A stretch of DNA of 49,012 nt. Source: Gracilaria domingensis. Taxonomy: Eukaryota; Rhodophyta; Florideophyceae; Gracilariales; Gracilariaceae. The position numbers and the translations under genes are program-made. The stretch lies in contig VCMS01000525.1 of assembly GCA_022539475.1 (NCBI GenBank), forward strand, positions 1-49,012, given 5' to 3'. The notes beneath the pieces are model-generated. The model saw only the letters and a list, made by a program, of their open reading frames with translations, was not told the origin of the DNA and did no database searches. Positions 623 through 49,012 of this stretch are shown here, in pieces (within the stretch, counting starts at the first letter, position 1; each line of letters begins with the position of its first letter).

Positions 623-1030
623 AAAACACTGGTCAGAGTCGCGCATATTCGCCATATCAAACATTTACGCCTCGACTTACCTGTTTCGCACGTTTCACAT
701 CCCAGGACAGGACTCTGAGAGGCAACGCCACTGAAGCTCACAGAAGAAGAACTTCAATCGCAGCCACACTGTACGTCAATCATCGCCGGCCGCGTAATGC
801 CCGTCCGCGAAAATTTTGAAAGTTGTGTTCAGAAAAGTTCGAAATCCTCCCCACACTGAAACATGCAGGAAAGGTACGTAAACGATCACGTGCACGGTGG
901 AGTTGGTGGCGTATAAACACACTTTATACTCTCCCCTGCAGGGTGCTCCAAGATTCTGCGCCGCACCATCACCACCGACCTCCCTCTGCAAGCAACTTCC
1001 CTCACTACTTTCATACCCTCTCACCCAGCC

Positions 1031-4000
1031 ATGCACAACTGTTGTTTCCCCCGCTGCTCATTCCATACACAGTCCCTCGCCTCTCTCGCCCAGCATCAGA
1101 AGCGATGCAGACACAGGAATGACCCAAACCCGTTTCTCACCCCAACACCTCATCGAGGATCCCACTTCCTCCCCGAACCAAGCGCCGCAGACTCAACAAC
1201 ACCGAACCCCCTTCCTTCCCCCCTCTAACCGCCCGTCCGATAACGTAGCACTCGCAGACGACGACCCTTATCTCCAGGAACAGCTTGCTCTCTCCCTACG
1301 CTCATCCGACGCAGCACAGATACTCAGCCCGCATCACCAACTCGCCTCCCAGTCCCCTTCCACAGGCTCAGGTAACGCCTTCTCCCCCTCTCCACCCTCA
1401 CAGAAAGACCACATCCATAACCTCGTCACCTACATATCCTCCATCGCCACAAAACTCGGAAAGCGTTCTGCTGACGAGCTCATCAACATTCTCAAGCAAT
1501 CCACCTTTCCCTCTTCCCTCTTCCAGACCTCCATCACTTCCGCTGCCGAATGTCTGAAACTGCACTCCAAAATCTTCGAAGAAACAGTCAGCTCCATTGG
1601 GTTCACCTCAACCATCATCCATGACAAAAACCATAACTTCTCCGCCACCCTCTACCTCAGGGACCCCGTTCAGGTTCTCCTACAACAACTTCGTCTCGCA
1701 TCCCACAGCAACTCCTTCTTTCATCCAGTCAAACAAGCTTCAAGAACAGGAACTACCGCAATCGCACACCCTATGGCTTCGGAACTCGGCCGCCATGTCG
1801 TCCCGACTATCAAGAGGCATATCATGCATTCTCCGGACCCCGACGTCATCTGGCACGATCCCAGTATCACCGGCACAGACTCGTTCGTTGGCCTCGTTCA
1901 ACTATATTCAGACAAGTCTTCCACCTCTTTGAAAAGTTCTTCTGTTACGTCGTATCCTCTTCACATCACCCTCCTCAATTTCAATGACTCCTTCCGCAGA
2001 AAGTGCATCACGCAGAACTACACACTCGTCGGATACATACCCACATCCTTCACCTCCGACTCGTCCTCCACTGACACAGATTCCTTGGAAGTCGCTCCCT
2101 CAACCCCCAGCGTGACCCGCATTGTGCGCATGCAGCTCGTCCAGGAGTCCCTAGAAACCATCCTCAAACCTCTGTATCATATCGGTATGAAGGGTTTTCC
2201 CTTCCGCGACGCCAAAGGAGTCCTTCGTCAATGCCATCCAGTCATCTCCAACTACAGCGCTGACATCCCCGAAGCCAAGGACATTCTCGCAGTACTTCAT
2301 GGCACAAAGCCAAGCAAACCCTGCCACCGGTGTCTCCTCCCTCGTTCAAAACTCAACCTCTACCAACCTACTCTCACAGAGCGAACCCTCTCACACACTT
2401 TGCAAACCAGAAAAAGACATGATGACCTACTTCTCGAGCAGATTCTGCTCTCCTCTCCCATAGACCACGGGTTGCAAGGAACCTCAAAGAAGAAGCTGCA
2501 GAACTTCTCCACTCCACCTCTCTCTCTCCATACAAGTCCTTTCTGGAATCTTACCCTCTTCTCAACATCTCTTCACTGCTCACTCCTTATTCAATCTTCT
2601 CCTTCGAGCCCCTTCACAACTTTCACCTTGGCATCTCTAAACTCATCAAACTCGCCACAATCGAACGCCTGAAGTCCGATTCTCTTCACACTTCCGTGGG
2701 CTTCAATGGATCCTCCAGGTCGTTTCGGTCCATCAGAACATCTATTCTTACTCACGCCAACTCCATCCTAGCTGACATCGAACGCTCGTTTCCGGCTCCA
2801 GGGCTTCATATTGATTTCTCGACATCTGAAAAGGGTAAGTCTCTCAACGGCTTCTTCACCACTGACGGAATCAGAGGCATGCTAGAAGCAAAGGACTATC
2901 GCGCCCTCGACATGGTCTTCCCCTTCATCGGTGCATTCTTCGACCGTTGCTGCGGTGAAGTATCTCGCGCCCCAATAACCACCATTTTCACCTCTTACGT
3001 CGATCTCGTCAATAATGTTCTTCACTACCACACTGCCCCAGAATGGACTGATGATCGCTTACGCTCTTTGGAGACTCTCATCAAGAACTTCAAGACTCAA
3101 ACTGTCTCAGTTTTGGGTCCATACCAGGCCTCCAACTTTCGTACTCTCAAATTCCATCTCCTGGATCACATCATTCCAGACATCCGTCGATACGGAGGCC
3201 TCCATTTCGGTGATGAAGGTGTGTACGAGCACGCGCATCTCCTCTTCAAGAACCACTACCGCCGTACCTCTCGCAGAAGATCAACTGCGCATAAGGAAAC
3301 AGTGGACTCAATCCAAGAGTCGCAGGATTTCTTACACTCCATCTCGGTAAGGAAACACTTCTCCATGTCTACCAACTAGGCCAGTCGTTTGTCGCAGCGG
3401 TGTCCCTCCATGGTTCGTGATGGTAGTTCATTCTCCCTCTTCGACATCATCACGGCCGACAAGTATCTACGGTCCCATCCAAACGTCCCGTCATCTGCTC
3501 TCACAGATTTGTTCTCCAAAACTACATTGCAGTTCATCAACCAAATCTCTCGCGACGCCCTCTCTTCCGTCCGTACCCTAAGCTTAGAAACTCTTCAACC
3601 GTGAGACAACCCCCATGACATCAAAATCACCGTCGTTAACTCCGCTTACATTGTTTCTGGATTCTGCCCCTCGCTGGATGACTACGATCGTCACTTTCAA
3701 TGCATTAGACTGCGAGAGCCGGAGGTCTCTTTGTGTGAACGTATTTTTGCAACCACTTCTTTCGGCCCTTCCAAGTCCCCAAAATTCTCTACCGTCCTGG
3801 TTAATGGAACTCCTCCTCCCGGTTGTGACTTCCCGACCGCATGGGTATGCAAAGTCTTTGCCCTGGTTCGCTTTAGCAGATGTAACCAAAGCAATTCCGA
3901 TTCTGAATTTGCCTTTGTTCGCTTCTTCGAGGTAACGGAGCCGTTGGATAACATTGACGAATCCTTGAACTGCATTTCCCTCCGCTGGGCCACGGATGAC

Positions 4001-4246
4001 GAGGAAGATCACACATTGCAAACCTCCAATTCTCTAAAACGGTCAACAAATGCATCTGTATCCCCATGGTTCGGTCTCGTCCCATTCTCTTCGATCAAAG
4101 GCTTGGTACACATCCTCCGACAAAACTATCCCGCACGCCTCTTTTTCCCTCCATTGCACTGGAAGTTCCACCGATTCTACATTGACAGATTCTATCGCAA
4201 TCCCCGAGCTCGTTTACAATACCATCCAATCACCAAACTTTCGTAA
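1031..4246 (+). pseudogene. Plavaka-type DNA transposase, decayed copy
   Basis: This is a broken homologue of the intact transposase at 44511-47690, collinear along its length and roughly half identical by eye. The N-terminus at 1031 encodes a C2HC finger-like motif (C4/C5, C9, H22, C26), as in the intact copy. The reading frame then moves to a second frame that carries LYSDKS, YSADIPEAKD and CHRCLLPRSKL. It moves again near 2455-2465 into a frame carrying EPLHNFHLG, the LDMVFPFIGAFFD block and EHAHLLFKNHYRRTSRR. In-frame stops follow at 3377-3379 (TAG) and 3602-3604 (TGA), after which homology resumes to 4246. These blocks match the Plavaka family (DDE-type, fungal, CACTA-related): YSDK and DIPE contain the likely first two acidic residues. 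The first frame change could be a spliced intron; the other lesions look like true decay. Its 3' end faces the partner gene only 16 bp away. Confidence 0.85.
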
Positions 4247-4262: not shown

Positions 4263-6815
4263 TTAGTGACGTTCTATCCAATTCTCCTCATGTAATCCTT
4301 CTTGCACAGACCTTTCCCTTACATCCCTTTCTGCAGTTATGTCGTAGACCATACGGTCTCCCCGACTACAGCATCCAACATAGCAATCCAGTACAGCTCC
4401 GAGCTTCTCAGAGATCTCTCCCATAAACACATCTTCTCGGACAGCAAGGTACATTTTCCTTTTCGACGGAATCCAGTAAACCACAGTGCCCACCCGGTCA
4501 TCATTTCCATGCCGCGCATCTTCAGCATTCGATGGGCCATTTCTGAACTCTGTTGGATAACTCTGCTGCATGCGGACCCTCACGGTCTTCAGTATACTCT
4601 CAAGTGCCAGTGGTAGATATTTCCCGAACAAGTTGGAGAACAACACTTGTCTCTTACCACCTCTCCCTCGTTCAGACTCTGTCGCGCGAACAACGGACGC
4701 TATCCAGGCATCAAGACGTGCCAGATTCATAATTGTTCCATCCACTGGATCCCTCTCTTCGGTATTCCTCGAACTTGTTTGTAAAACGTCGTAGCCCATG
4801 AACTCACGCAGCATCTCCAAGCTCAGGCTGTTCCGAAAAAGCAAGTCACATGGTTCATCTTCGGTTGCATGATATGGGTTAAAGCCCGAGAAACATATAT
4901 CTTCTACCTTCTGAGTTCTCTACGACGACAGAATCTCACATCCATTTGCATCTTTGGGTAGGAGTTTTTCACGTACCTCTCTGGTTTGTATTTCATACTT
5001 GTTCTGCTCCCTTTCATCATTTTTTATCGGGGTCCTTACAAGCATGTCGTAACCTAGTCCCATCAATAACTTCTCCTTCGTATGGCGTTTTCGAACACCT
5101 ATTGCATCACTTAAAGCCTGTTTCAACCTTCTGCGCAAACAAATGTCGTGCGTTAACTGTTTCACACAGTCATCTTCCATTTTCATTCCTCGGATAGATT
5201 CCCAACGTGGCTTCATTACCTCCGTCTCCACAATTTGCATCAATAAATGGTCGCCTCCACCACGCACGGATGGCGTGTACGCCCTCATCTCCATGGCAAG
5301 ATCCATTGGGCACCGTGGCACTATCTCCTTCCCATCAACAACCAGCACACTGTCGTCTTTCTCAGGTCCAACTGTCTCACTTCGGTTGCCCCAGTTCCTT
5401 GCCGGTATACTCATCTCGAAGCATAGCTCTCCTGTCTCGTCTTTGGCGTATTGAAGTATGGAGTCATAGACGGTCTTCGCAACACCAACAAACTCGTCGT
5501 TCACGTCAATGTTGTACCGCTTCCTGCTCTTGTTACTGTCACGTTCGTTCCTTTTCCCTCCACTTCTGAGAGCCTCTCTCAAAGAGTGTATGAGAACCTC
5601 TTGTTCTCTGACCTTAACCTCCAGTTGCTCTATGTTCTTCTGAGCAAGTCGTACGCTCATTTTCAGACTTTGCTTGTCCTCTATTGTACGATACAGATCT
5701 CCCTTCAGTTTCCCGATCTTTTCCAAAAGCTCGTATCGCGGAGTAAGGGATTCATCTTCATCTTCTTCCATTGCACCATGCAGGGAAAAGCTCCGTGACA
5801 AAGCACCATGATCAACATCTTTATCGTTCCATACTTCTCTACGGGCGTTTGCTATGACAGGTTGCCGATCGTTCCCCACCCGTCTATTCTCATTTCCATG
5901 GTTCGTCCTTCTTCTGACCTGATTGAACCTGTTTCTCTGTAGCTCACTTGTGACTGGTGTCGGTTGTATCTCGTCTTCGTCTTCGTCTTCATTGTGTCTG
6001 GACCCAATATAAGGGACGGAATCATGCCTGCCTTCGATGGGAGCCATATGCGTTGCATTTCCGGCGTCCACGTTATCGTTCGCTTCCACGTTATCCTTGT
6101 CCTCGACGTCACTTGGGATATCTACTGCGTCCGTGGACTCCCGCTCCTTTCTTCCACTGCCTTTCTTGGCACGAGAGACACCATCATTCATTTTCTCGTT
6201 CCTCTTCACTTTTCTCGAATCATAACTGTTACGTTCTGTTCCGGCACCGCATCTGGGTATCTCCCTATCCCCAGGTTCGGCTCTAGGTTCGGCTCTCACG
6301 ATGGCGCAATCCACGGTTTCCATCTCCGCATTGTCATCCGCAGTGCTCACCTTGTCGAAACAATCATCGATACGAGGACCTTCTGTTCCTACACTGCCTC
6401 TTGTCCTCCTTACATTCTGACGTACAGCCGTTCTTCTCTTATTTCCTTTCATCGCTTTGACATCTACATTTCCATCATCACTGACCCTTGGCTCTTCCAT
6501 TGCAGCCATGTGGCGTGTAACAGGCCCACGCATTGCACTATTCTTGGCTTGAACGGTTTCACTTACTGTGCGTTCCGTAGTGCATGTGGAAGCTCCTGAC
6601 CTCCTTCTCGGTTTTACTTCCGATACTGTAGATGAAGATTTTGGTTTGCGAAGTCCAGCACGAGGTGCTCGGCCTCGGCTACCTCTCCCATTAGTAGCAC
6701 TACTTCGTGAGACGACCGCGCTCCTACGTTTGGCCACCTCAGTATCCCAGCGCTCCGGCGGTTTCGATGCCTTTCGCGGTTTACCACCTGCATGCTCCGC
6801 ACGTTGAGGGGCCAT
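4263..6815 (-). pseudogene. coiled-coil partner of the Plavaka transposase, one nonsense codon
   Basis: An 850-residue reading frame runs from ATG 6815 to a stop at 4263, broken only by a TAG at 4920-4922 (codon 632). The first 350 residues are disordered, basic and then acidic. A coiled coil spans about residues 358-418 (heptads around YELLEKIGKLKGDLYRTIED). A conserved C-terminal domain begins at VNDEFVGVAKTVYDSIL and includes CLRRRLKQALSDAIGVRKR and FRNSLSLEMLREFMGYDV. The same C-terminal blocks occur in the gene at 47687-49012, also tail to tail with a Plavaka transposase. In that copy the residue aligned to the TAG is tryptophan (SWWRK), so TGG to TAG is the simplest explanation. I do not recognise the family. 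By position it may be a DNA-binding accessory protein, like TnpA of CACTA elements; that is inference. Confidence 0.75.
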
Positions 6816-7279
6816 CCGAGATCCTTCGGCCTTCGTGCGCGGTAGTATTACGGAACAGATATAGAAACGTGAACGATACTGAAGGTATATGATTGAGAGT
6901 GATATGTGAGGGTCACGTACTCGGTGTGCAGGACTGATATGTGAAGGCGAGGGGAATTTAACCTCGTACTGCATATATGGAGAAAAGCATTCTGCAGCAT
7001 TTGTGGCGGATCGGCATTCAATTTTGGGACCTTTCCCGGGTCCATATTCCGGACTTGGTCCGATTTTCCCGGATGTTGCGCCCTGCATATACAAGTACGG
7101 CACTTTCAACGATCTTTCATACCACTATATGCATCAATATGTTACACAGTACAGCTTGAGTGTACATATGAGTAGTATTTCTGCAATCACAGCACAAGTG
7201 TTCAATACAATTTACTTCAACAAAAAGCTTTTCTCACTACATTGAGCCCATACGAAGTTCAAGGACATTGTCTGAGAAC
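6816..7279. other. intergenic region between partner gene and MTase-SET gene
   Basis: No gene is supported here. It should hold the promoter of the minus-strand partner gene (start 6815) and the 3' flank of the minus-strand methyltransferase-SET gene (stop 7280). The reading frame of the partner stays open upstream to 7109, but the ATG at 6815 (MAPQR, followed by a basic tail) is the more natural start. Confidence 0.4.
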
Positions 7280-8944
7280 CTAGGTTAACCTTTCCCAAGG
7301 ATATGTGGGTCCATAGTCAACGTAAATTTCGTCGTGCTCCTTAATGTCCCTTGAGGCCGTGACTACGAGGAGTCTGAAGTTCTCCAAAAGCCCCAAAGTT
7401 GTAGCCTGATACTCTGTGGGCTGGCGAATGAATACATTTGGTTTGCGTGCCATGTTAGAATCCATTTCTTCCAATTCCTTGTCCTCATCACCTTCACGAT
7501 ATGACACGTCATTGATATAGCTCGCTACAAAGAAAGGAGCAGGAACTATCCAGGCATGACCAGCGTTGACTTCAGTATCATAATGCGGGAGAGTGTTGTA
7601 CATTTGCCCCTTCACCCTCACTTGCATGCAATACTTCCTGAACCGAGATGCAGTGGCCCCCAGCATTCCGTCTCCATACGTCAAATGTGTGGTATTGCGT
7701 CGGCTTAGATCATGATACACCAAGGTCCCATAAAAGTATCCAATAACCTCCCCTTCGGAAAACGCCCTACTCGTAAATACTCCATTTCCACTTGCTGCAT
7801 GTTTGATATTCGACTTCTTCACATAGAGCCATAGCGATGTCGCCTCGACAGAGAGTAAAGTGTGACTGTCCAACGTAGTCATCTTCCCTTGTAAGGCAAG
7901 TGGCCACTCATGGAACGGTTTCTCTTTGTACGTAGTGATAAGACCAGGTTCATTCCAATAGGTGGATAGGTACGACATGATATGGAATGGGAAAGATTGG
8001 TACGATGGGAATCCCTTGGGTGCATTCCATATAGTCGAAGTCTTTCGTTTCCGTTCAGGAAATTTGGCATCCACCACATAAGACGCTTGAACTACCTCAT
8101 TCGTAACCGGTTCTTTCATCTCGAATTCATTGCGCCACACCTTTCTTGCGTAATGCACAATAGCATTGTGCTTGGCATGAGAGAAACACTGCTCATCTTG
8201 CTCACATCCAATGAAACGCCGAGGCCCCTCAATATCCATACATGCCAGCGCGCACGAGAACGTCCCGGAGTAGAGATCAACAACAACACCCCCGGGTTTC
8301 GAGAACCTCGCTATTAGCTCCATCAGTAGCTGCCTCGACTTTTGTTCTGGACGAGCCTTCGCGGTTCGAATTCTTCTACCACTCTTCACTCTCCATCGGA
8401 GACTCTCCCCAGGCGTAAGATTTGGAACCTGGTCAATGATAGAATAGTGCCCAGGATAGCGAGCTGAAACGTAGTTGAAGTTCTGATAGTTCATCATTAC
8501 CTTCTGTTCCGCGTACGGGTTTCCATTCCTCACGCCATGCACGGCGTACTCCGTCGCCCCAAACAGGCGAGTAGTATTACGCGCAGGGTTCTTCAAGGGG
8601 TTCGAACGAGAACGAATGAAGTTCATGGGCCTCGAATCCACTAAGAATGATGCGGTTTTCTTTCCGCTTGCGTCCTCCGACTTGTGCTCTCGCAAAATCT
8701 CTTCCCAATCTCCAAACTGGTCGATACTGCAGAACAAAACGAAATGCCTTCCTGGTCGAAGCATGGATGCCATGATGTCCGCAGTATTTTCCATATCATC
8801 GTCAGCCAATTCGTCGTACTCGCTGTCGCGGATGCCATATGGTGGGTCTGTGAGCACGAACTGAACGTTGCCTTCCAAAGATGTATCCGATGGGAAAATA
8901 GTACCATGGGCCTCCACCAGTTCGTCATATCCGACACAATGCAT
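7280..8944 (-). CDS. beta-class DNA amino-methyltransferase fused to a SET domain
   Basis: The 554-residue frame has two enzyme-like domains. Residues about 27-290 resemble an S-adenosylmethionine-dependent DNA methyltransferase of the beta class: motif IV, VLTDPPYG (DPPY at 33-36), comes first. The SAM-binding motif I, VVDLYSGTFS (221-230), follows after a variable target-recognition region, then RRFIGCEQD. DPPY is typical of N6-adenine or N4-cytosine enzymes. Residues about 371-545 resemble a SET lysine methyltransferase: SGNGVFTSRAFSEGEVIGYFYG, ASYINDV (474-480) with KPNVFI (501-506) in place of the usual NHSC-PN block, and DIKEHDEIYVDYG ending at 545. The usual NHSC cysteine is absent, so SET catalysis is uncertain. 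The ATG follows directly on the TAA of the upstream frame, in the same phase. Activity, substrate and whether it is a transposon gene are inferred. Confidence 0.8.
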   Translation of the reverse strand: MHCVGYDELVEAHGTIFPSDTSLEGNVQFVLTDPPYGIRDSEYDELADDDMENTADIMASMLRPGRHFVLFCSIDQFGDWEEILREHKSEDASGKKTASFLVDSRPMNFIRSRSNPLKNPARNTTRLFGATEYAVHGVRNGNPYAEQKVMMNYQNFNYVSARYPGHYSIIDQVPNLTPGESLRWRVKSGRRIRTAKARPEQKSRQLLMELIARFSKPGGVVVDLYSGTFSCALACMDIEGPRRFIGCEQDEQCFSHAKHNAIVHYARKVWRNEFEMKEPVTNEVVQASYVVDAKFPERKRKTSTIWNAPKGFPSYQSFPFHIMSYLSTYWNEPGLITTYKEKPFHEWPLALQGKMTTLDSHTLLSVEATSLWLYVKKSNIKHAASGNGVFTSRAFSEGEVIGYFYGTLVYHDLSRRNTTHLTYGDGMLGATASRFRKYCMQVRVKGQMYNTLPHYDTEVNAGHAWIVPAPFFVASYINDVSYREGDEDKELEEMDSNMARKPNVFIRQPTEYQATTLGLLENFRLLVVTASRDIKEHDEIYVDYGPTYPWERLT

Positions 8945-10447
8945 TTAGAATTGCTTCTCCATGCTTCCTCGCACCACATCTAGAGCATTTAACGTGCGCG
9001 TGTCATCAAAGTCATGAGGGGGGAGAACCCCATCTGGAACGTTATCTTTCGCCCCAACAGAGGCACCAGGTGCATCACCTTCTTCATTGTCGCTATCGAG
9101 GATGACGATGACATCGGAGTTAACTGAGCTTTTCCCTGCGGCGTTCCTCTTGGAGGAGCTCGGAATCTGTATCGAGTCCTCAACCTTAACCGTGACGGTA
9201 TTATTTCCTCCATCCTGCCCTGAAGGAGCGGCCCTAGGGATAAGTCGAGATGGTTGGAAGTTATGTACAGACATCGCTTGACGAATAGGAGACACGTACT
9301 CTTCGGAGAATACATTGAAACGGGGTGGTACTCGTGCGGGGCGGCCAGGTCTGAAGCTTTCCAACAAACTCCATCTTGACGTTGGGGACATTTGGTATAG
9401 GAAGCCATTCAGCACAATCTTGCTGAAATCTGCCAAGAATTCCTTTGCCAACTCCCGTAAGTTGGCGTCGATAGTATCCGGAAGGGTATGAACCCAAGAA
9501 ACGGTGTCGTTCACATCCAACGTGGGTTTCAGTTCTTCCCCCAACGTATGAAAAGCTGACTCCGGACTGTACCCAACAGAGCGGGATTCAATGACATGGA
9601 ACCCAAGCGACTTCTTTTCTACAAGCAGGTATGGCAGCAACATCTGCTCACCATCACCAAAGCCTAAGGTTGAGGCAAAGAAATTCCATCCCTTACAAAT
9701 TGTTTGCACTGCATGTGCCATCCGTCTCCCGTGCGTCTTATTCGAAGCTATGTACCCGTCGACGAACTGCACAGCTCTATGGGTTCCCTTCCCGGTCCTT
9801 CCTCTCTTCGCCGCTGGGAGATTTCTCTCCGAAGTTATATGCTTCACGAAAGAGAGATAGAGTAACTGCTGAAAACGAGTGGGAGGCCCAATCCTGAACG
9901 TAGTTCTCTTCGTCTGCTTACTGCCTGGACCATGTCGTTTGAAAAGGTCATTCCAGAAAGCCCGTTCTATGAACGAGTTACCGTTGTCGACATCCTTTTC
10001 AAGACTCCAGGTAAACAAATCTCTCACGCGCCGATCAGAATTCTCGTCGTCTAGATCAGTGATACGCGTATATTTGTAGACCCTGCTGAGAAAACGCACG
10101 TCCAGACAGATCTTCGTGAGTTCTTTTGCGGAGTAGTTTTGGAAAGGACCCTTGACCGCAGCGGTGATGAACTCTCGTGCACATGCCAGGTGTTCACGGT
10201 TTGATAAAGCGTATTCCACAACTTCCGTGTACCCAACTTCACGCGGATTACCAGTACCACTTCTTGAAGCGGCATACGCATCTCGCAACTCAATGAAAAA
10301 CCCCCAACATTTCAAGAAACGCGTTGCCATGCTGGCTGAATCGAACGACGCGCTAGAGGATGCGCTAGAGGATACCGTGCCGTGGTTCTCATCGGCCAGC
10401 ACACTCTGCTTAACAGTCCGAGGAGCGTCATTTCCGGTGGACGCCAT
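8945..10447 (-). CDS. uncharacterised protein with SUMO-interaction-like motif, upstream of MTase-SET
   Basis: The 500-residue frame starts at ATG 10447 (MASTGNDAP). The frame is open further upstream, but this start precedes a Ser-rich disordered leader. I do not recognise the central part (about residues 40-370). It is rich in helix-forming stretches and aromatic residues (FLKCWGFFIELRDAY, FIERAFWNDLFKRHG, LLYLSFVKHI). The C-terminal 100 residues are disordered. They hold a sumoylation-like site, VKVED (K about 421), and a classical SUMO-interacting motif, VIVILDSDNEE (446 onward), hydrophobic followed by acidic. The stop TAA at 8945-8947 is followed at once by the ATG of the MTase-SET frame in the same phase. 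The two may therefore be one protein of about 1,050 residues broken by one stop, or a stop-restart pair. Confidence 0.65.
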   Translation of the reverse strand: MASTGNDAPRTVKQSVLADENHGTVSSSASSSASFDSASMATRFLKCWGFFIELRDAYAASRSGTGNPREVGYTEVVEYALSNREHLACAREFITAAVKGPFQNYSAKELTKICLDVRFLSRVYKYTRITDLDDENSDRRVRDLFTWSLEKDVDNGNSFIERAFWNDLFKRHGPGSKQTKRTTFRIGPPTRFQQLLYLSFVKHITSERNLPAAKRGRTGKGTHRAVQFVDGYIASNKTHGRRMAHAVQTICKGWNFFASTLGFGDGEQMLLPYLLVEKKSLGFHVIESRSVGYSPESAFHTLGEELKPTLDVNDTVSWVHTLPDTIDANLRELAKEFLADFSKIVLNGFLYQMSPTSRWSLLESFRPGRPARVPPRFNVFSEEYVSPIRQAMSVHNFQPSRLIPRAAPSGQDGGNNTVTVKVEDSIQIPSSSKRNAAGKSSVNSDVIVILDSDNEEGDAPGASVGAKDNVPDGVLPPHDFDDTRTLNALDVVRGSMEKQF

Positions 10448-10680
10448 GTAAGAACTGAGAATCGGAAAGGACGCGAAGTAAACGAATACTGTGAAACGGT
10501 AGAAGTTTCGGAGATGTTTAAATGGGTGGGAAGCGTCGGAAACGTCGGGAAGCGTCGGAAACAATGGTGGAGAGCGCGGTTGCGACGGATTACCGAGAAC
10601 TGAGCGGGTAATGAAATAGAGAGACGAGAGTGGGATCTAAACACATCAAACCGGTGGGGCACCTCAGTATGTGCAGTGCA

Positions 10681-11076
10681 TTATATGTCTAGTATGTAAA
10701 ACCAACGTAGAAAACACTGGGTTCGTACATCTTTGAACATCGCCCGAGCGCCGTGTGGGAACCGCCGTTCGCCGAGTTCATAGCCGAGATCATAGCTATG
10801 ATCTCGGCTATGAACTCGGCGAACCGCGGTTCCGGCACGGCGCATCTGAAGAAACGCCACGTGTATACCGCCGAAAGGACCCCCCCTGAGGACCCCCCTG
10901 GAGGACCCCTTGCTGTCGTTTATGTGGGCAGTGACGTCGAATAAACGGGAGAGCGATGGAGACGCGGATGAAACTTCGGACACATTGTGTAGCAAGCGTG
11001 GAAGACGGAGGGGAAGGGCTTGAGGAAGAGAGACGATGCGGTGGGAGCGGAGCAGCGCACGGAGGGCGGCGGCCAT
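10681..11076 (-). CDS. possible truncated gene with mitochondrial-type leader
   Basis: A 131-residue frame starts at 11076 with an Arg/Leu-rich, acid-free leader (MAAALRALLRSHRIVSLPQ) that looks like a mitochondrial presequence. Only the first 45 residues look like protein; the rest reads through one arm of an inverted repeat (10910-10934) and the large palindrome (10748-10843). It may be the first exon of a host gene cut by insertion, or chance. I do not recognise it. Confidence 0.2.
   Translation of the reverse strand: MAAALRALLRSHRIVSLPQALPLRLPRLLHNVSEVSSASPSLSRLFDVTAHINDSKGSSRGVLRGGPFGGIHVAFLQMRRAGTAVRRVHSRDHSYDLGYELGERRFPHGARAMFKDVRTQCFLRWFYILDI
10748..10843. repeat. 96-bp near-perfect palindrome
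   Basis: The sequence is self-complementary about the point between 10795 and 10796. The inner 58 bp (10767-10824) are a perfect palindrome with no loop, and the arms continue to 10748 and 10843 with three mismatches. It lies upstream of the minus-strand gene starting at 10447. As single-stranded DNA or RNA it would form a very stable cruciform or hairpin. Confidence 0.95.
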
Positions 11077-11119
11077 CGACGGGGCGTCACTTATTCACTG
11101 CCCACATAAACGCCAGCAA
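10910..11119. repeat. 25-bp inverted repeat pair flanking 160 bp
   Basis: The arms are 10910-10934 and 11095-11119, which are reverse complements with one mismatch. They enclose the start of the possible truncated gene at 11076. They could be termini of a small element or a fold-back; no target-site duplication is evident. Confidence 0.85.
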
Positions 11120-11776
11120 CACCACCAGGTAGTGGTGGTGTGGGTGAGAACAGGTGCTTTGGTGCGCATTGTGTAGTAGAAGTAGTCTCCAGGGGACGAG
11201 GAGAAGATATATTTATTGAGAACGAAACGAGCAGATATTACCTATAAAGAGGTGTATCGAAGGAGCTATATCTATGTTTTGTTTCCTTTAAGGCTTGTAA
11301 ATTTGAAGTGAGGAAGGTGTTCATAAACGAGTGGCGAACTTAGCTTCTGTGATGGAAAAGCTATGAAGAGACGGAGTACATGAAGAGTAAAATGCAGGGC
11401 GATGAAGAGGACGGAAGAATCATGATATGATGGTAGTGGTAGGATTTCATTTCATATACTACTGGCATGAACCATGTATGAAAAGGGACGCCTTTCTCGC
11501 AATGGTTGGGAGAACATGGAGAATGAGAAGCATAGAGAGTGTTCAAAAGTGAAGAATTGTGCTAGTAAATATGAAAATAATTGCGATGCAGAGGTTGGAC
11601 GGATATGAGCGGGTGCGGCGGTACTACATTGTCATGGGACGAAAGCGTCTACCCTTGGTACACCGTGATCGGTTTGCGAAGGAACGATCAGCGAGTTCTG
11701 TTCTTTTCGGCTTCCCTGATTTCTCTTCTTTCGATATCCCTTTTGCTCTTCTACCAGATCTTCTACCAACGCGACC
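11120..11776. other. non-coding region upstream of the small plus-strand gene
   Basis: No supported gene. The stretch is AT-richer than its neighbours, with scattered short open frames lacking protein-like composition. It presumably holds the promoter for the gene at 11777. Confidence 0.35.
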
Positions 11777-12460
11777 ATGAGCGATGACGATTCGCGTTCG
11801 AACATTAGGTGGCCGTGGGAGTCGGACGAAGGGGTACGGTCGCACAAGAAGTTAAAGAGTGTGTTCGAGGAGGAGGAAGAAAAGGAAGAGCTGGACTGGT
11901 GGGCCACTGCAGTGCTGGGGTGTGCCGGAGCGATGGGGACGCGCATGGGAGAGGACGTGGGTCGACTGACGAAGAAGGTGACAGGGTTCGTGGTAAGGGA
12001 ACTGAGGGGGATGAAAGAGGAGCAGAAGAAGATGATGAAACGCATTGAGAATCTGGAGGGGAGCTCGAAGGAGGTGAATGGGAGGAAGAAGGGCGGGGTA
12101 GGGGGTGTGGAGGGAACGCCGGTAACTCCGGCGCCGAAGACGAAGATCGTGAACGGCGTTGGGGTAGGAGTGTGCATCGGAAGCGAGGACGAGGATGCGA
12201 GAGACTTTGTACCGGCGACGGATAGTTTTGGGGCGGATGAGGTGATGGAGGGAGGATTGGTGAGGAAGAGAGGTCTGAAGAGGAAGGTTGGCGAGAAGAG
12301 GCCGATCCAACCGAGGAGTGTGGGGGTGGAAGAGGATGAAATTCAGCCGAAGGTGGAGAACAAGAAAGGAAAAGGGGATAGTAAGAAGAGGACACGGGTT
12401 GGGTTCAGGACTGTTCCGAAGCCGGTGTGGAAAGGGAGCAGTGTTGTTGGATACGAGTAG
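11777..12460 (+). CDS. uncharacterised charged protein
   Basis: A 227-residue frame starts at an ATG in good context (ACCATGA). It has an acidic N-terminus (MSDDDSRSN, then EEEEEKEELDWWATAVLG) and a short amphipathic helix or coil (VRELRGMKEEQKKMMKRIENLE, near residues 73-94). Its disordered tail contains basic, nuclear-localisation-like clusters (RKRGLKRKVGEKR, KKRTRVGFR). I do not recognise the family. The strand is opposite to the neighbouring MTase-SET and ParB-like genes. The opposite strand also has open frames, but they are Ser/Pro-rich shadows. It could be a small nuclear accessory protein of the same element, or a chance frame in G-rich DNA. Confidence 0.45.
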   Translation: MSDDDSRSNIRWPWESDEGVRSHKKLKSVFEEEEEKEELDWWATAVLGCAGAMGTRMGEDVGRLTKKVTGFVVRELRGMKEEQKKMMKRIENLEGSSKEVNGRKKGGVGGVEGTPVTPAPKTKIVNGVGVGVCIGSEDEDARDFVPATDSFGADEVMEGGLVRKRGLKRKVGEKRPIQPRSVGVEEDEIQPKVENKKGKGDSKKRTRVGFRTVPKPVWKGSSVVGYE

Positions 12461-12961
12461 AAGTGGAGCTGGGAGGATGTTGTGGAGGATGAGGAGGAAA
12501 CCGTTGAGAATGATGATGGGAAAGAATTTCGTACGCTATCATTCGCGGATGTGGAGGTAGAGGAAGGAGATGAAGGTGCTTTACTTTGATTGAGGTGATA
12601 CAGTAGTTGCCGGGTTGATGGAGGTAGAAAAGCGGTGGGGGAATGGATGTGCGCAACTACCATTTCATGAATGTTGTACTAGCCAGAGTTAGTTTACATT
12701 CATTATTTGTGTTTATTTGCAATCGACAAGTATGCAAGTGCCGTTGGTAGCTTCCAGATCGAGCTCCCACCTAATCCGTCTGAGTATACTAGGTACAAAA
12801 ACTTTCATGTCATGGAGGTGAACTAGCAATTATGTCCGCCTTCACTCATTCTACAAATTCTGTAGTATTGCTTGAATAAATGAAAGTATGGTATCCAAAA
12901 ATTTTTTTTTTTTGGCTTGCACATAGCCGTACATTCAATTCTTTGCACATTTTTTAACGAT
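12461..12961. other. intergenic region with a T-tract
   Basis: No gene seen. An A5-T12 tract at about 12899-12915 lies downstream of the minus-strand ParB-like gene stop at 12962. In that orientation it is an A-rich 3' flank. Confidence 0.35.
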
Positions 12962-13819
12962 TCAATCCACAAAATAGCATTCTTGCCTCCTTACATAGCG
13001 TTCCGGAAACACAGACGTCGCTGCCAAATATTGTATAGCTTTCAGACGATGCAAACCATCTACAATGAAGCACTTCTTCGTTAGGCGTCCCTTGTCAGTA
13101 TCCCTCTCTCCCGTAGTAGCATCTTGTAAGGCCACCACTGGAGAACCCATCCACTGCAATATCTCCCGCTCTTCCATACTCTTCACAAGGGCTTCAACGT
13201 GGCGTTTACTTACTCCACGGAGTAAATTGGGCCGATTGTCCACCAGAGTGATGTCAACAGTAACGACAACCATCCGGTAGTGATTGAGGTTCACCTTTGG
13301 TACCTTCTGGCGAATTCGTCTGTACGTCTTGCTCCGAGTAGGTGTCCCTTGTGTTCCAGACCGCTCGCCAGAAACACTTGAACGTGCCATTCTTGCGGAC
13401 AGAAGCACAACGTCATCGTCCTGCTGCTCCGCAGTTTCTGGTGCAGTTTGGGGTACAGATGGACCAGCTCCTTGTGTGGATTGCGCATCCGCGTCTGGAA
13501 GGGGACCTTTCATAATCTCATCTTCCTCTTCTTGCACAGCCTTCCCGTGCTGAACCCTCTGTCTCGACGCAGAAATTCCCCTTGTGTCGACGGTCTGATT
13601 CATCGCAGGAGATGCCCTTTTCGACGCAGTGGGCTTCGTAGCGGAGGTAGACTTTGTTTGACCTGTCCGCTTCGTACGTAGGGATGATCTCGTCTCCATA
13701 GACCGCTTCGTAACAGACGACGGACGTGCCCGCGGAGGTGCTACTGATGCGCTACCTCTCGGTGTTGATGAACTTCGAATTGGCTCCGTGCGGCTTGTCG
13801 GCGTCATCACCTCACTCAT
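12962..13819 (-). CDS. protein with a ParB/sulfiredoxin-like domain
   Basis: The 285-residue frame has a disordered, Ser/Thr/Arg-rich N-terminal half (residues 1-175). It includes DDDVVLLSARM, which may be another hydrophobic-acidic interaction motif. The C-terminal 110 residues match the ParB/Srx fold signature: DNRPNLLRGVSKRHVEALVKSMEEREILQW, then SPVVAL, then KCFIVDGLHRLKAIQYL, which fits the GxHRLxA nucleotide-binding motif. Family members include the CTPase partition protein ParB, sulfiredoxin and DNase-like proteins; the biochemical activity here cannot be read from sequence. The ATG overlaps the TGA of an upstream frame (ATGA, 13819-13816). The frame is also open for 21 codons upstream of the ATG. 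Confidence 0.65.
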   Translation of the reverse strand: MSEVMTPTSRTEPIRSSSTPRGSASVAPPRARPSSVTKRSMETRSSLRTKRTGQTKSTSATKPTASKRASPAMNQTVDTRGISASRQRVQHGKAVQEEEDEIMKGPLPDADAQSTQGAGPSVPQTAPETAEQQDDDVVLLSARMARSSVSGERSGTQGTPTRSKTYRRIRQKVPKVNLNHYRMVVVTVDITLVDNRPNLLRGVSKRHVEALVKSMEEREILQWMGSPVVALQDATTGERDTDKGRLTKKCFIVDGLHRLKAIQYLAATSVFPERYVRRQECYFVD

Positions 13820-14300
13820 AGCAGGCTCACCGTTCGTCGCTTGGACGCTGGAATGCTGGCTGCCACCGGTTCCATCATTTTCTCATCCCAAGGAGCGGCC
13901 GTCCGGAGATCCTGGATGTATTGGAAGATCCAGGCCCTCCCCCCGGTAAGGGTAGAAAGTCTGACCGCTTCGACTGATGAGAATATTATGAACCACCACA
14001 AGACCTGGGTCCAATTGCTTCCCGTGCAACTCGCGGCGTAGAACACTTCCAATTCCATGCAACAACGCTTCCCCGACTATCACCTTTCCTTCATCCTCAA
14101 TATCCATCTGCAGAGAAACCCGCATTCCACCTTGCAATAATCGAGTGCTCCGCCGAGTGCGAGGAGTCACGCTTTGCGTACGCTTTTGAACACGAGTTGG
14201 CTTCATGTTGAACAGCTATTGCAGTGAAAGGTGTATATCAACAATACGCTCGCTCTGGACGATACAAGAACGGATGCGAGCCTTTAAAAGGCGACTTACG
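13816..14300 (-). pseudogene. upstream coding segment before the ParB-like gene, likely one frameshift and one intron
   Basis: The frame from 14206 (MKPTRVQKRTQSVTP, then GKVIVGEALLHGIGSVLRRELHGKQLDPGLVVVHNILI) looks protein-like up to a run of six G on the minus strand (13939-13944). Beyond it, the protein-like continuation is in another frame (AWIFQYIQDLRTAAPWDEKM) and ends at TGA 13816-13818, overlapping the ParB-like ATG. One base fewer in the G run would join them. Upstream, a GTAAGT donor (14299) and TGCAATAG acceptor (14216) would splice LAVRWEELPKAGVPS to LFN-MKPTR in frame. More coding may lie beyond, cut by the LTR element at 14527. Alternatively, the 14206 frame reads into the ParB frame past one TGA (13883). 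I recognise no family. Confidence 0.4.
14216..14299 (-). other. candidate 84-nt spliceosomal intron
   Basis: On the minus strand the segment begins GTAAGT and ends in a pyrimidine-rich stretch followed by CAATAG. Removing it keeps the upstream frame (ending AGVPS) in phase with the downstream frame (LFNMKPTR). The length is usual for a fungal intron. Confidence 0.45.
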
Positions 14301-14526
14301 CTGGGCACCCCCGCTTTCGGCAGCTCCTCCCAGCGCACTGCCAGTCTCGTCCGTGTCCTGTCCGTGGCCGCTCGCACACTGATTGTACGCTTTAGAGTCG
14401 TGGAGCTCGCGCAATGATGACTCACGCGAGCAATGGTCGCGTTCTCTAATCATGCTCTTCAAATGCTTTGCATAGTAGTCAAGAGTACCCTCATTCACTT
14501 CCATGTACAGCCCACTCCCGGAAATA

Positions 14527-15383: not shown

Positions 15384-15398
15384 TCTCCCCCTTCTCAG
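15384..15398 (-). promoter_or_regulatory. polypurine tract at the 3' LTR
   Basis: On the minus strand this reads CTGAGAAGGGGGAGA, immediately before the TG of the 3' LTR, where plus-strand DNA synthesis of the retroelement would be primed. Confidence 0.8.
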
Positions 15399-15436
15399 GC
15401 TGAGACACCGACTCCGTCGGCTCGATACGCCTCGCG

Positions 15437-20441: not shown

Positions 20442-20625
20442 TCTGTGGCCTGTTTCCGGCGGTTTCGATTAGAAATCTTGTCGTTCCAGAAAGGCAACTT
20501 TGCTCCACGTTTTAGGCGGACTACGAATCTCGTACAAAAATGGTCGTGTGCTGCTCCCGGATGAGTTCCTCCGGCTTGATCGACGAAAGAGCCCGGTTCG
20601 GTTTCGTGTCAGACCAGCGCTAAAA

Positions 20626-44141: not shown

Positions 44142-44510
44142 CGGAGTATAACGCGAGGATGTGGATGGCACGGATCACGACGGTAAGGGAAGGTCGGACG
44201 TCGGAGGCGCGGCGGCGGCGGCGGAGGGAAGAGATTTATTTTTCTGTGCGAGATTGGACAGGTGTACAGCGTACAACGTTGCGAAACCACAGGTTTATAA
44301 CCAGTGGTAGATAATACGAGAAGTACACCCTTGTGTTGAGGTCGACGTGTACCTACGTTCCTTTTTGAACGAAAGCACGTGATTTAAACTCAAAATATAT
44401 TCTCCGTTCTCAGCATGACGTCGATCTTGACTGTCGCTCGACCTCCTTCTCCCTTCGGACGCCCTTCCCTTGCAGTCTTTGTCGTCGTTTCTCGTTCAGT
44501 TCTTCTTCCC

Positions 44511-47500
44511 ATGGTCTACTACTGTACACATAAGAAGCGTGGGTGCCCCTTCGTTACTCGCCGAGGAGTCTTATCCCTTCAACAGCATGTCAACCATTGC
44601 CCGTTTCGTCTGAAAGCAGCGCTGGAAGACGACAATAGCCGGGCCATTCGGAGAAGCAAGCGTCTCAAGCTTTCCGCACCCGCGCCCGCATCTTCCGAAA
44701 CGGTCACTGCCCCTTGTCGCGTTCCCGAGCCTCCAGTGTCCGAGGACATCGTCGACCCCACTCCGTGCGCCCCTCCCATTCCGGACACTTCGCATTGTGC
44801 TTCTCCTTCCCCGGGTCCCGCATCACTAGAGCGAGAACACGGAAGCAGTTCCCGCCCAGTGCCTTCTGAGGAGGCCCTCGGTGATTTGCATATGGATTAT
44901 CTCACGGTTTGTCTGGCTTCAGTAGCTTCCAACCTTGGTCATCGTGAGGCGGACGAGCTAATTGGGCTACTTCGGGACCCGCGATTCTCGCAAAAGCGAT
45001 TCAACGAGACCATAACAAGTTCCAAGCGCTGTACAGAACTGAAGAAGGCCATTTTCGAACGATACGCCTCAAAGGACGGTTTCAATCGCAGAACTGTCTC
45101 GCCAGAAGGATGTAAGTTCAGCGCCACCCTCTACACGAGAGACCCCGTTCAGACACTTGTGAAACAGCTCCAGTTGGCTAACAACGAAAACACATTCTTC
45201 CACCCTATACCTCAGACCCACTCCACGAAAATATCTCACCCCATGTCCGGCTCTCTCGCAAGAGACGCCACCTCAAAACTTAAGGAAATGGTCATGGGCT
45301 CTTTGGATAGTAGAATAGTGTGGTACTCCCAAGAAATAAGTTACAGTGAATCTTTCGTAGGTCTTCTGCAGGTATACACCGATAAGTCTTCAACAACTCT
45401 AAAGCAAACATCGGTTACCGCCTATCCTCTTCACCTCATATTTCTCAACTTCTCCGACGAGCTTCGCCGTAAGTGTATCCGTGATGACCTCACAGTAGTG
45501 GCATACTTCCCTACCACACTGATCGAGGTTTCCGCATCTGAAGCAGACGCAATGCCATTTGTTTCTAGCAAGTCTCTACGCGAGTCCAGGATGCAAATCC
45601 TTCAAGAATCTCTTCGTCAAGTCCTGGAGCCCATTCTAAATCTCACGCAGAAAGGTTTTCAGTTCATCGGCGAAGACAAACTAAGTCGAGTGTGCCATCC
45701 TCTGCTTGCAAGTTATTGTGCGGATATTCCTGAGGCTAAGGACATTCTGTCTATTCTTCATGGCACCAAAACGGAAAGCCCGTGTCATAGATGCAAAGCC
45801 CCTCGCTCATCTTTATGCAGTCCTATTCCCACCTCATTCAACGGACGTTCTCAAAAGCACACGAAAAGCATCCGAAAGACATACACAGCTATCTTGCAAC
45901 ATGCACAAAAAGACGAGGCGGAAAGACGTCCACGTCGTGCGAGGGAGAGGAGATCTCAAGCGGATACTCTGATGCGTTCAAATTCCATATCTCTCATTCC
46001 TTCGTTCCTCGAAACTTCCGTAAGCCTTGGAATGATCCCGGGATTGTCTCCATACAGTCTGTTCTCATTCGAACCATTACACAACTTGCATCTCGGCATC
46101 TCAAAGTTGATAAAAACGGCCACAATCGAGAGACTGCAGTCAGACACCCTGTGCACCACATTAGGAACATCTGCATCGCGTTCATTTCGAACGATACGCA
46201 CCCAACTCCTCAACCATGCAAACGCAATTCTAGCTGCCATAGAACGCGACTCTCCTGCCAAAGGTTTACATATCGATTTCTCCACGCAGGAGAAAGGCAA
46301 ATCTTTGAATGGTATCTTCACGAAAGACGGTCTCCGTGGAATGCTGGAGGCCAAAAACTACAAAGCACTTGACATGGTCTTTCCCTTCATAGGAGCATTC
46401 TTTGACATATGCTGTGGAGAACAGGACGTTGCCCCAATCACAACCGTTTTCTCTCAGTACTCGGACTTGCTCTCGACCTTATTCAGATACAATCGTGACC
46501 CGTATTGGACTGAAAGCTCTCTCCTGTGTCTTAGTTCGGAGATTGAAGCCTTCAAGCGTTCCGCAACAAAGACTCTGGCGGATTTTCATCCCTCCAGACT
46601 GGGAACTCTGAAGTTTCATCTTCTCGATCATCTCGTGGACGATATTCGCCGTCTGGGAAGTATCAAGTATTACGACGCAGGCATATACGAACATGCACAC
46701 CTGCTATTTAAAAGACACTACAAAAAGACGTCCAGAAGAACAGCAACGGCTGTGGAGGAGACTATTCGCTCCATTGAGCACGGACATGCTAGAAAGCAAT
46801 GGAATGGCAATACTCCTTACCAGCGTAATGCAGGTTTACCAGGAACTTCCACACAGCTTCCTCGGTTTGCAATGAGAGGGCGTTCTTTCACTTTACGAGC
46901 TCTTCAACATTGTGTTTCAAGTATGTCCAGTTCAAAAACATGGACTGCTGTTAGAGAAATGTTCTCAAGTACGGACACAAGGTCGATTCTTGATCAAATT
47001 GGTGAACAGGCCCTTCCTCCTTTCCTCAGTCTCGTGAAAGAAACACTGGATGAGCACTCTATTACATACTTCCCAGAAAAGACAAGGATAACTCTGGTGA
47101 ATTCGGCCTTCGTGAAAGGCGGTTTCGTTCCGACTCTTGAACACTTCGATTCGTCTTCTAAGGCACTTAAGCTGGGACGACCCAAATACCCCATCATCCA
47201 ACGTGTCTTCGCTTCTCCAGCATTTGGTCCCAGTAGAAAGCCAAAGTTTTCCACTGTATTGGTAAGCGGAGAAGATTCAGAGACTTGGGTTGCCCAGGTA
47301 GTCGCTCTGATTCGAATATCTCTCCTTGATTCTGCACTTACCGCACCAGAGGTGGCATTCGTCCGGTATTTCGAGGTTTTACCCCCCGCAACAAACATCG
47401 ACCACATATTGAAATGCATATCTTTACGGTGGGCTACAAACGATGAAAAGAACCACACTCTTCCGTTCCCTCGTCATTCCAAAGCGGAGACTATCGTAGA

Positions 47501-47690
47501 GTTAACTGCTTGGTACGGGATGGTTCCGGCTTCTGCACTACAGGGAACTGTCCATGTTGTTCGATCAAACTACCCTGCTCCACCTTTTTGTCCTTCACTT
47601 CAATGGTTCCAACACCGATTCTACATCAATCGATTCTATCATGATTCAGATGAAGGACCAACTGAGCACGTTGATCTTGTACAGCCTTAA
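44511..47690 (+). CDS. Plavaka-type DNA transposase, intact
   Basis: A 1,059-residue open frame. I chose ATG 44511 because it puts a C2HC finger (C5, C12, H26, C30) at the N-terminus, as in the copy at 1031; the frame is also open from an ATG at 44415. A disordered, nuclear-signal-like stretch (RRSKRLKLS) follows. The transposase core holds VYTDKS (D291), then YPLHLIFLNFSDELRRK; YCADIPEAKD (D405, E408); CHRCKAPRSSL (Cys from 425); FEPLHNLHLG (E521); and IYEHAHLLFKRHYKK (E727). These correspond to the conserved blocks of Plavaka transposases, fungal DDE-type enzymes related to CACTA/EnSpm. Which late acidic residue completes the triad is uncertain. The gene ends at TAA 47688-47690, overlapping the stop of the minus-strand partner. 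Its intactness suggests possible activity. Confidence 0.9.
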   Translation: MVYYCTHKKRGCPFVTRRGVLSLQQHVNHCPFRLKAALEDDNSRAIRRSKRLKLSAPAPASSETVTAPCRVPEPPVSEDIVDPTPCAPPIPDTSHCASPSPGPASLEREHGSSSRPVPSEEALGDLHMDYLTVCLASVASNLGHREADELIGLLRDPRFSQKRFNETITSSKRCTELKKAIFERYASKDGFNRRTVSPEGCKFSATLYTRDPVQTLVKQLQLANNENTFFHPIPQTHSTKISHPMSGSLARDATSKLKEMVMGSLDSRIVWYSQEISYSESFVGLLQVYTDKSSTTLKQTSVTAYPLHLIFLNFSDELRRKCIRDDLTVVAYFPTTLIEVSASEADAMPFVSSKSLRESRMQILQESLRQVLEPILNLTQKGFQFIGEDKLSRVCHPLLASYCADIPEAKDILSILHGTKTESPCHRCKAPRSSLCSPIPTSFNGRSQKHTKSIRKTYTAILQHAQKDEAERRPRRARERRSQADTLMRSNSISLIPSFLETSVSLGMIPGLSPYSLFSFEPLHNLHLGISKLIKTATIERLQSDTLCTTLGTSASRSFRTIRTQLLNHANAILAAIERDSPAKGLHIDFSTQEKGKSLNGIFTKDGLRGMLEAKNYKALDMVFPFIGAFFDICCGEQDVAPITTVFSQYSDLLSTLFRYNRDPYWTESSLLCLSSEIEAFKRSATKTLADFHPSRLGTLKFHLLDHLVDDIRRLGSIKYYDAGIYEHAHLLFKRHYKKTSRRTATAVEETIRSIEHGHARKQWNGNTPYQRNAGLPGTSTQLPRFAMRGRSFTLRALQHCVSSMSSSKTWTAVREMFSSTDTRSILDQIGEQALPPFLSLVKETLDEHSITYFPEKTRITLVNSAFVKGGFVPTLEHFDSSSKALKLGRPKYPIIQRVFASPAFGPSRKPKFSTVLVSGEDSETWVAQVVALIRISLLDSALTAPEVAFVRYFEVLPPATNIDHILKCISLRWATNDEKNHTLPFPRHSKAETIVELTAWYGMVPASALQGTVHVVRSNYPAPPFCPSLQWFQHRFYINRFYHDSDEGPTEHVDLVQP

Positions 47691-49012
47691 ACATTAAGGG
47701 CTCCATCTTCTACATGTTCACCTTGTGGTGCCTTTTCTTGTGATCCTGTGTTAATTCCGAAATCGTTCATGTCCATTTCCTTGAACTCCATATCCCCTTC
47801 CTCGCATTCACCAACGAAGCAATCGCTAATAGACCCCAATCTTCGGCTCACACTGTCAATAAAAAATTGTTCTTTCACAGTGAGGTAAAGTCTTCCGTTC
47901 GACGGCATTCGATATCCAAATGTAGCCTCTCTCATGTCATTACCAAGAACCTTAGTCCAATCTTCCGTTGTCGTTCCAAAATTATGAAACTCGCTGGAAT
48001 TGGTCCTCAAGACATGTTGCCTAACATCCCCAGAACATTCTTTAAACACAGAGGTAGCAGTTCAGCAAACTTCTTTGTAAACAGTTTCTGTCTCTGGCCA
48101 CCCCTTGACACATCCGTACTTAGAAGGCTCACAACCGTCAACACCCAAGCGTCCAAACGTGCGAGCAACAGTATTGTGCCATCTAAAAGGTGCCCGTATC
48201 CTTGTCTTCCACATCATACCCAATAAACTCCTTCAGCACTTGTACCCCGACACGGTTTCGGAAGAACAAGTCTTGATCTTCCGTCGGCATATCCTCGACA
48301 TTGTCCGCATTGGAGTACTTTAGACGAACAAATGGGGCTTTTCTCCACCATGAAGTGTTCGGTACACCATTTTCGTCAAGACGCAGTATGTTCTCCTGCG
48401 CTTCCTTCAACTGCATTGTGAGTTCGTCAGCATTCTCTTCTACCAGCTTTGTTCTTCTCCAAATCAGATCGTACCCCAGGAGCAGAAATAGTTTATCCCT
48501 CGTATTTCTCTTACGAACGCCCACGACGTCACTCATGGTCTGCCGCATTCTCTGCCTAAGGCACATATCTGCACAAAGTTCCAGTATACACCTGTCGGTA
48601 AGAGATGCTTTTCTAATACCTTCCCAGCTCAACTCCTTCAACTCGCTTTCAACCATTTTCTTCAGCAAAGCATCTGGCCCCCCTCTACCGACGGTGTGAA
48701 CATGCCAAAACTGCCCAAGAGCTCCACGGGGTTTTTAGGAACCATGTATGAACCACCTTCCTCCGGCTCAATAAGCCCTTCCCCACTCTCAGTTGCGTCT
48801 TCCACCTTCTCGGCACGGTTACCCAATTTCGGGTGAGCGACTCACCTTCGAGCCATAGCTCACTTGTTTCTCTCCTTGCCCACGTCAGCATGTTGTGATA
48901 CACTGCTCGAGCAACCCCTCGAAACTCGTCGCACACCTCAATTTTATGCTTCTTTCGACCTGTCTGCCCAGGTTCACAGCACGTGTACTCCTATCTCCGT
49001 CCTGTTTCAGTG
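47687..49012 (-). pseudogene. coiled-coil partner of the Plavaka transposase, second copy, frameshifted and cut by window end
   Basis: Three minus-strand segments match the C-terminal domain of the gene at 4263-6815. The first starts KKHKIEVCDEFRGVARAVYHNML (48960-48685). The second includes CLRQRMRQTMSDVVGVRKRNTRDKLFLLLGYDL and FFRNRVGVQVLKEFIGYDV (48668-48183). The third includes YRMPSNGRLYLTVKEQFFIDS (48049-47687). They lie in different frames. Between 48186 and 48050 the match (DGTILLLARLDAWV) continues in a further frame, so at least two frameshifts or undetected introns are present. The N-terminal disordered part and coiled coil lie beyond the window. The stop codon lies within the TTAA that also holds the transposase stop. 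Confidence 0.75.

Follow-up and report, generated by a model that had tools for sequence, protein, structure and literature searches.

A DNA methyltransferase-SET gene and its transposon

The stretch of DNA analysed here (the window; 49,012 nucleotides of contig VCMS01000525.1 of the red alga Gracilaria domingensis) contains a gene for a DNA amino-methyltransferase (MTase) fused to a SET domain, which belongs to a Plavaka-type DNA transposon of about 20 kb. An initial annotation had recognized the fusion in a frame at 7280-8944, and this open frame of 554 amino acids (aa) is indeed present on the minus strand. Its translation contains DPPY, VVDLYSG, GNGVF, YIND and YVDYG. Pfam profiles assigned N6_N4_Mtase (PF01555) to residues 27-258 (8171..8866, minus strand; E 4.6e-14, 53.3 bits against a cut-off of 26.7) and SET (PF00856) to residues 386-545 (7310..7789, minus strand; E 9.3e-7, 29.7 bits against a cut-off of 22.4), i.e. 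in the order that had been proposed, and the SET domain of the copy on contig C12 also scored above the cut-off (28.4 bits). The assignment of the MTase to the permuted beta class was borne out by the PF01555 match and by the position of DPPY ahead of the S-adenosylmethionine (SAM) motif. Motifs and fold agree with the profile for the MTase, and the SET motif is aligned with Asn-Asp in place of Asn-His. The structure model of this frame is confident (pLDDT, the predicted local distance difference test, 87.6).

The gene extends beyond the 554-aa frame. Directly upstream and in the same phase lies the frame 8945-10636 (minus strand), separated from it by a single TAA (8945..8947, minus strand), which gives the 554-aa frame the appearance of a gene of its own. 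In the C12 copy a serine codon stands at this place, and 1055 codons are open with no stop; the start ATG of this copy corresponds to window position 10447. Since one TAA splits two in-phase frames and the C12 copy is open throughout, the 554-aa frame represents the 3' half of a gene of 1055 codons that a nonsense codon interrupts here (7280..10447, minus strand); the gene comprises an N-terminal region, the DNA MTase and SET. The fusion as first described therefore stands, but its frame is incomplete: the intact protein has 1055 aa and an additional N-terminal region (8948..10447, minus strand). This region is helical in the structure model, which covers approximately residues 37-400 with mostly high confidence. 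A fold search with it gave no match (best E 2.3), which does not by itself mean a new fold. Two separate genes for the two halves, as opposed to the single gene assumed initially, were ruled out by the single open frame in C12 and in the copies of subfamily C (see below).

Copy number and the element termini rule out a host gene: the frame belongs to a DNA transposon present in many copies and is broken in the window copy. A comparison of the C12, C61 and window copies delimited the C12 element to about 20.0 kb, including 423 N. Its terminal inverted repeat is GTCTGTGTTTCCGG[G/A]A[T/C]GCTA, the left and right ends agreeing at 19 of 21 positions. Using a 14-bp core pattern with at most two mismatches within the stretches examined, 12 ends were located. 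Both ends were found for C12, C233, C277, C120 and C202, whereas for C61 it was the left one and for the window copy the right one. The inverted repeats expected of Plavaka elements were thus seen at both ends in five copies. MTase-SET matches are listed for C12, C233 and C277 but not for C120 and C202, which may be deleted copies. The right flank is common to C12 and C233 but the left flank is not, so at least one of these two is rearranged. The located ends show a CG bordering the TCTGTG core, which is either a CG duplication or a part of the terminus. For Plavaka, the relevant part of PMC12730594 gives target-site duplications of 2-3 bp and termini TGT..ACA or CATCA..TGATG, which the termini found here do not exactly fit.

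The gene order in C12 is transposase (plus strand, 1110 codons), a second open reading frame (ORF; minus strand), MTase-SET (minus strand) and a ParB-like/dioxygenase-like gene (plus strand). The Plavaka profile PF18759 matched the first 542 codons of the C12 transposase (E 3.9e-21). The transposase, a single frame in C12, is split among three frames in the window copy (882..4246, plus strand). It is followed by the second ORF (4263..7124, minus strand; frames 4263-4919 and 4920-7124), which has a weak DUF7603 match below the cut-off and looks coiled-coil-like by eye. On the other side, 5' of the MTase-SET gene, there is a near-perfect 96-bp palindrome (10748..10843). At 10911..11195, about 6 kb of C12 including the ParB-like/dioxygenase-like gene are gone and a segment is inverted relative to C12. 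The right-hand part of the element (11193..13018) is 97.8% identical to C12 and includes the right terminal inverted repeat (12996..13016, minus strand), whereas the left end of the window copy is off the contig. Because the ParB-like/dioxygenase-like gene has been lost and the transposase is broken over three frames, the window copy is probably dead. At 10728-11195 (and at 8284-8916 of L009), a segment 5' of the MTase-SET gene lies between inverted repeats of about 183 bp, as seen in C12. C12, C61 and C161 carry this segment in the opposite orientation to the window, C442, C149, C399 and C233, which resembles segment flipping by recombination.

A fragment of a subfamily C ParB-like gene in the window (13017..14526, minus strand) is 97% identical to L130:209-1718. 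A long terminal repeat (LTR) retrotransposon (14527-26191; 548-bp LTRs 14527-15074 and 25644-26191, 99.8% identical) begins exactly at the end of this match, and its ORF 17748-18920 (minus strand) has a chromodomain-like end as judged by eye. Within 26386-31588, direct repeats spaced by about 2.1 kb overlap one another (94.5% identity) and encode nearly the same short protein twice. Direct repeats of about 990 bp (31655-32643 and 39708-40690, 96% identical) are probably the LTRs of a second, older retrotransposon. A subfamily C element is present with its transposase end at 44388..49012 (plus strand), including a stop-free Plavaka transposase of 1100 codons at 44388-47690 (PF18759, E 7.3e-19); the stretch 47600-49012 is 99.6% identical to L132.

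Copies, partner gene and distribution

In the genome from which the window comes (77.9 Mb, 680 contigs), at least 90 matches to the MTase-SET protein were found (78 of 828 candidates scored). Among the matches listed, subfamily A comprises 15 rows over residues 1-554 with 95-100% identity, the window included, and subfamily B 12 rows over residues 1-552 with 65-70% identity. Some rows score identically (e.g. C324/C571, C159/C509, C25/C294) and may come from duplicate contigs, so the rows are not all independent insertions. Subfamily C, only 32% identical to the window protein, was found by querying with another member; its search gave at least 47 matches (44 of 1088 candidates scored), and 28 rows span residues 1-1055, of which 9 are stop-free. 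The MTase-SET pairing is thus present in three transposon subfamilies of the genome. A further MTase-SET stretch (L020:8613-9893), 35% identical to P0001, lies about 1.9 kb from a subfamily A copy on C22.

The proportions of nonsynonymous (pN) and synonymous (pS) differences between subfamilies A (C12) and B (C157) were 0.155 and 0.752 in the MTase, 0.157 and 0.598 in SET and 0.257 and 0.702 in the N-terminal region; synonymous sites are near or past saturation, so that exact ratios are not meaningful. Every region is clearly constrained, SET as strongly as the MTase, and a second B copy (C132, with three stops) gave the same picture. Within subfamily A, the few changes give dN/dS ratios scattered around 1, as expected of copies decaying after insertion; six of the seven single-frame copies compared have a stop, and others are frameshifted. 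Both domains, their fusion, its repetition in a bounded element, the gene order and purifying selection on both enzyme domains were established directly.

The partner gene is split over frames in C12 and open for 1326 codons in C434. By eye, its product has a ParB-like stretch (LIDGAHR) and, towards the C-terminus, HTD followed by a later H and RYH; judged from its sequence, this C-terminal stretch looks like a 2-oxoglutarate dioxygenase. The HxD..H..R-like pattern is conserved in all three sequences compared. The 1326-codon frame gave no Pfam match up to E 5, TET/JBP included. With the middle part of the partner as query, it was found in subfamily A (mostly 95-99% identity); matches of about 53-63% identity lie next to copies of subfamily B, e.g. 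C231, C489, C110 and C159. On C465 (subfamily C), the ParB-like gene adjoins an open MTase-SET gene and is transcribed divergently from it; this layout is the same as in A. Both subfamily C genes occur on nine contigs among the matches listed: they are at most 1.4 kb apart in the same relative orientation on C465, C164, C56, C238, C346 and C49, and far apart on C100, C169 and C192. Similarly, ParB-like and Plavaka transposase matches share seven contigs among those listed. On C91, C591, C49 and C183 these two genes are 6.9-7.0 kb apart and keep the same relative orientation; on C28, C187 and in the window the distance is larger. On C91, the MTase-SET gene, broken over several frames, lies between the two.

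The same two-domain order, which the initial annotation had proposed to look for in fungal proteomes, was found in a set of 5.8 billion proteins. This search yielded 34 homologues of the MTase-SET region (4696 candidates scored); those with the same architecture are 24-42% identical, and precomputed annotation lists both Pfam domains for 13 of the 34. Since the alignments of 25 of the 34 cover 94% or more of the 556-residue MTase-SET region, the fusion is not a chance joining. One homologue is labelled as coming from a Bacteroidota metagenome-assembled genome, which we suspect to be mis-binned. For the partner protein, at least two homologues were found (7995 candidates scored). The lengths of their longest contigs and their contig counts (20,528 bases with 4 contigs; 25,405 bases with 1 contig) agree exactly with those of P0002 and P0006 among the MTase-SET homologues, which indicates that the two genes share contigs there. 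The pairing therefore seems to occur in other genomes as well. In P0025, a ParB-like stretch (RDGAHR, residues approximately 17-81) precedes MTase-SET in one protein, whereas in the elements described here it belongs to the neighbouring gene. For window 12965-13882 and P0025, the ParB-like label has behind it only a weak pairwise match (E 0.021) and no Pfam ParB match.

Prokaryotic MTase-SET fusions were also sought: at least 61 viral and at least 33 genome loci matched, but none of the matches listed extends past query residue 296, so none covers SET, and a simple pattern for a SET-like end found none among the best 30 of 103 frames. A ParB-like region ahead of the MTase, resembling P0025, was seen by eye in the phage proteins L040 and L046 (2 of 11 frames), which differ in having no SET. 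Descent from such phage ParB-MTases is unsupported by the ranking, L040 and L046 not being among the 30 best-scoring frames listed.

Catalytic residues and the proposed role

In the structure comparison of the model, the closest solved fold for the MTase part was CcrM, a bacterial N6-adenine enzyme, which agrees with the prokaryotic affinity suggested initially. The predicted structure resembles the beta-class N6-adenine enzymes CcrM and MboIIA over approximately residues 1-278. CcrM, MboIIA and M.BceJIV share with it the motif order, DPPY and this fold; they differ in being stand-alone bacterial enzymes without SET and are 16-22% identical to it in the VIA alignments. Foldseek listed SET7/9 for the model (6.7e-6), the VIA fold list being barely a test of the SET part. 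Catalytic residues were aligned in 31 rows (the window, P0001 and 29 of the 34 homologues). The Gly-Thr of the MTase SAM motif is invariant, and the catalytic motif is DPPY in 28 rows and DPPF in three. Judged from these motifs and the modelled fold, the MTase is probably active.

The reading we favour, and hold to be moderately probable from motifs, the structure model and analogy, is that the chromatin of the element itself is marked by a transposon-encoded DNA-adenine methyltransferase carrying a divergent SET domain. One polypeptide would combine the N-terminal helical region, a beta-class DNA amino-MTase (most likely N6-adenine) and the divergent SET. It would act on the element's own DNA, where the MTase would write N6-methyladenine (6mA) and the fused SET domain would bind or methylate a chromatin protein at the same place. 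The element would thereby keep an expressed chromatin state or resist silencing by host cytosine methylation, and the divergently transcribed ParB-like/dioxygenase-like partner would work in the same cassette. In this reading, 6mA over N4-methylcytosine (4mC), SET activity, self-targeting and the anti-silencing effect are inferred. The self-marking or anti-silencing role, for expression or spread against silencing, is put forward tentatively by analogy to transposons carrying TET/JBP genes (as outlined in part of PMC12730594). A mobile self-marking cassette in which one polypeptide methylates both DNA adenine and chromatin lysine, with a partner joining a ParB-like DNA-binding part to a DNA dioxygenase, appears unlikely; that a single protein places a mark on DNA and another on histones, as suggested initially, is a hypothesis.

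Several observations weigh against this reading. NHSC (Asn-His) is the motif of the SAM/lysine pocket of SET domains, and the doubt about SET activity raised initially was justified: the Asn-His expected of SET lysine methyltransferases was found in none of the 31 rows. SET is decayed in seven rows that keep the MTase; the MTase is never lost in the 31 rows while SET sometimes decays, which is evidence against an indispensable SET activity. Further, the ParB-like and dioxygenase-like labels of the partner rest on motifs found by eye without a Pfam match, and the window copy is broken in both the MTase-SET gene and the transposase.

Alternatively, SET may be a pseudo-enzyme whose retained role is to bind proteins or nucleosomes and so to anchor an active DNA MTase on chromatin. 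This explanation is a serious contender, although we would not bet on it. It fits the contrast between DPP[YF], present in all 31 rows, and the SET motif, which is Asn-Asp in 24 and neither Asn-Asp nor Asn-His in the aligned columns of seven (P0012-P0015 and P0027-P0029; P0013 has Asn-Asp one column off). It also has a precedent in the amino-MTase with a chromodomain known in bdelloids (described in part of PMC8885841). However, the pN of SET between subfamilies A and B (0.157) matches that of the MTase (0.155), the second SET Asn (window residue 503) is invariant in all 31 rows, and the C-terminal Tyr, as read by eye, is retained in 23 of the 24 Asn-Asp rows. Catalytic activity of SET, judged from these residues, is a possibility of slightly less than even weight; support for the MTase from motifs, fold and selection is good, whereas SET activity lacks such support.

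DPPY is usual in N6-adenine MTases and SPPY in N4-cytosine MTases. The DPPY motif, together with the best profile and fold matches, which were N6-adenine enzymes, points to 6mA rather than 4mC as the probable product of the putative enzyme; that it writes 4mC, like the bdelloid enzyme N4CMT, is improbable. It is about equally improbable that the MTase primarily regulates transposition, adenine methylation near the termini tying transposase binding to replication, with any effect on silencing being secondary. Dam methylation times the binding of Tn10 transposase to replication in this way, and the CcrM-like fold of the model and the location of the gene beside the transposase are in agreement with such a function, but it leaves the SET fusion and the dioxygenase-like partner unexplained. 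A functionless passenger gene, caught in the transposon and amplified with it, could account for the dN/dS ratios scattered around 1 (small counts), stops and frameshifts within subfamily A but is very improbable in view of the strong purifying selection on all regions between subfamilies, the stop-free subfamily C copies (9 of the 28 full-length rows listed) and the architecture retained in homologues at 24-42% identity.

Relation to known systems

Cytosine MTases occur on retrotransposons. TET/JBP genes thought to counter silencing are carried by DNA transposons of fungi, among them Plavaka, KDZ and EnSpm, according to the part of PMC12730594 that treats them. These elements are alike in being large DNA transposons, including Plavaka, with a gene for an epigenetic enzyme; their gene encodes a dioxygenase, and that part of the source shows neither a DNA amino-MTase nor an MTase-SET fusion. 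SET methyltransferase genes are described there for the DNA transposons HarbingerS and MuDR of Phytophthora, which belong to other superfamilies and for which that text mentions no DNA MTase fusion. Transposons carrying epigenetic enzymes (TET/JBP, SET; same part of PMC12730594) are therefore already known, and the unusual feature here is the MTase-SET fusion. The initial annotation assumed a fungal host, with which a Plavaka transposase would be in keeping. Plavaka was also reported from Amoebidium, and its giant repeats are described without an MTase-SET fusion in the pertinent portion of PMC11244446. In the open-licence literature searched, no paper describing a fusion of a DNA amino-MTase with SET came up, whether in a transposon or elsewhere, though older papers may mention one.

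Among eukaryotic DNA amino-MTases, bdelloid N4CMT is described in part of PMC8885841 as a captured gene that writes 4mC and has no eukaryotic homologues, with a chromodomain thought to tether the enzyme to chromatin. The gene described here differs in being a transposon gene with SET and the N-terminal region and with motifs pointing to 6mA. The fungal 6mA writers named in the section consulted of PMC13297926 are the MT-A70 complex and MetB. MetB of Mucoromycota is similarly a bacterial-type N6 DNA MTase in a eukaryote and is said there to be horizontally acquired, but it belongs to PF02384 and is described as a host 6mA writer, that section mentioning neither SET nor a transposon.

If the proposed role is correct, self-marking of the element would use 6mA, i.e. 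a mark outside the cytosine-methylation silencing of the host, and a source of adenine methylation would be carried by a mobile element. Such elements would represent a route for prokaryotic DNA-modification enzymes into eukaryotic chromatin, and the fusion would allow a direct test of one protein coupling a DNA mark to a protein mark.
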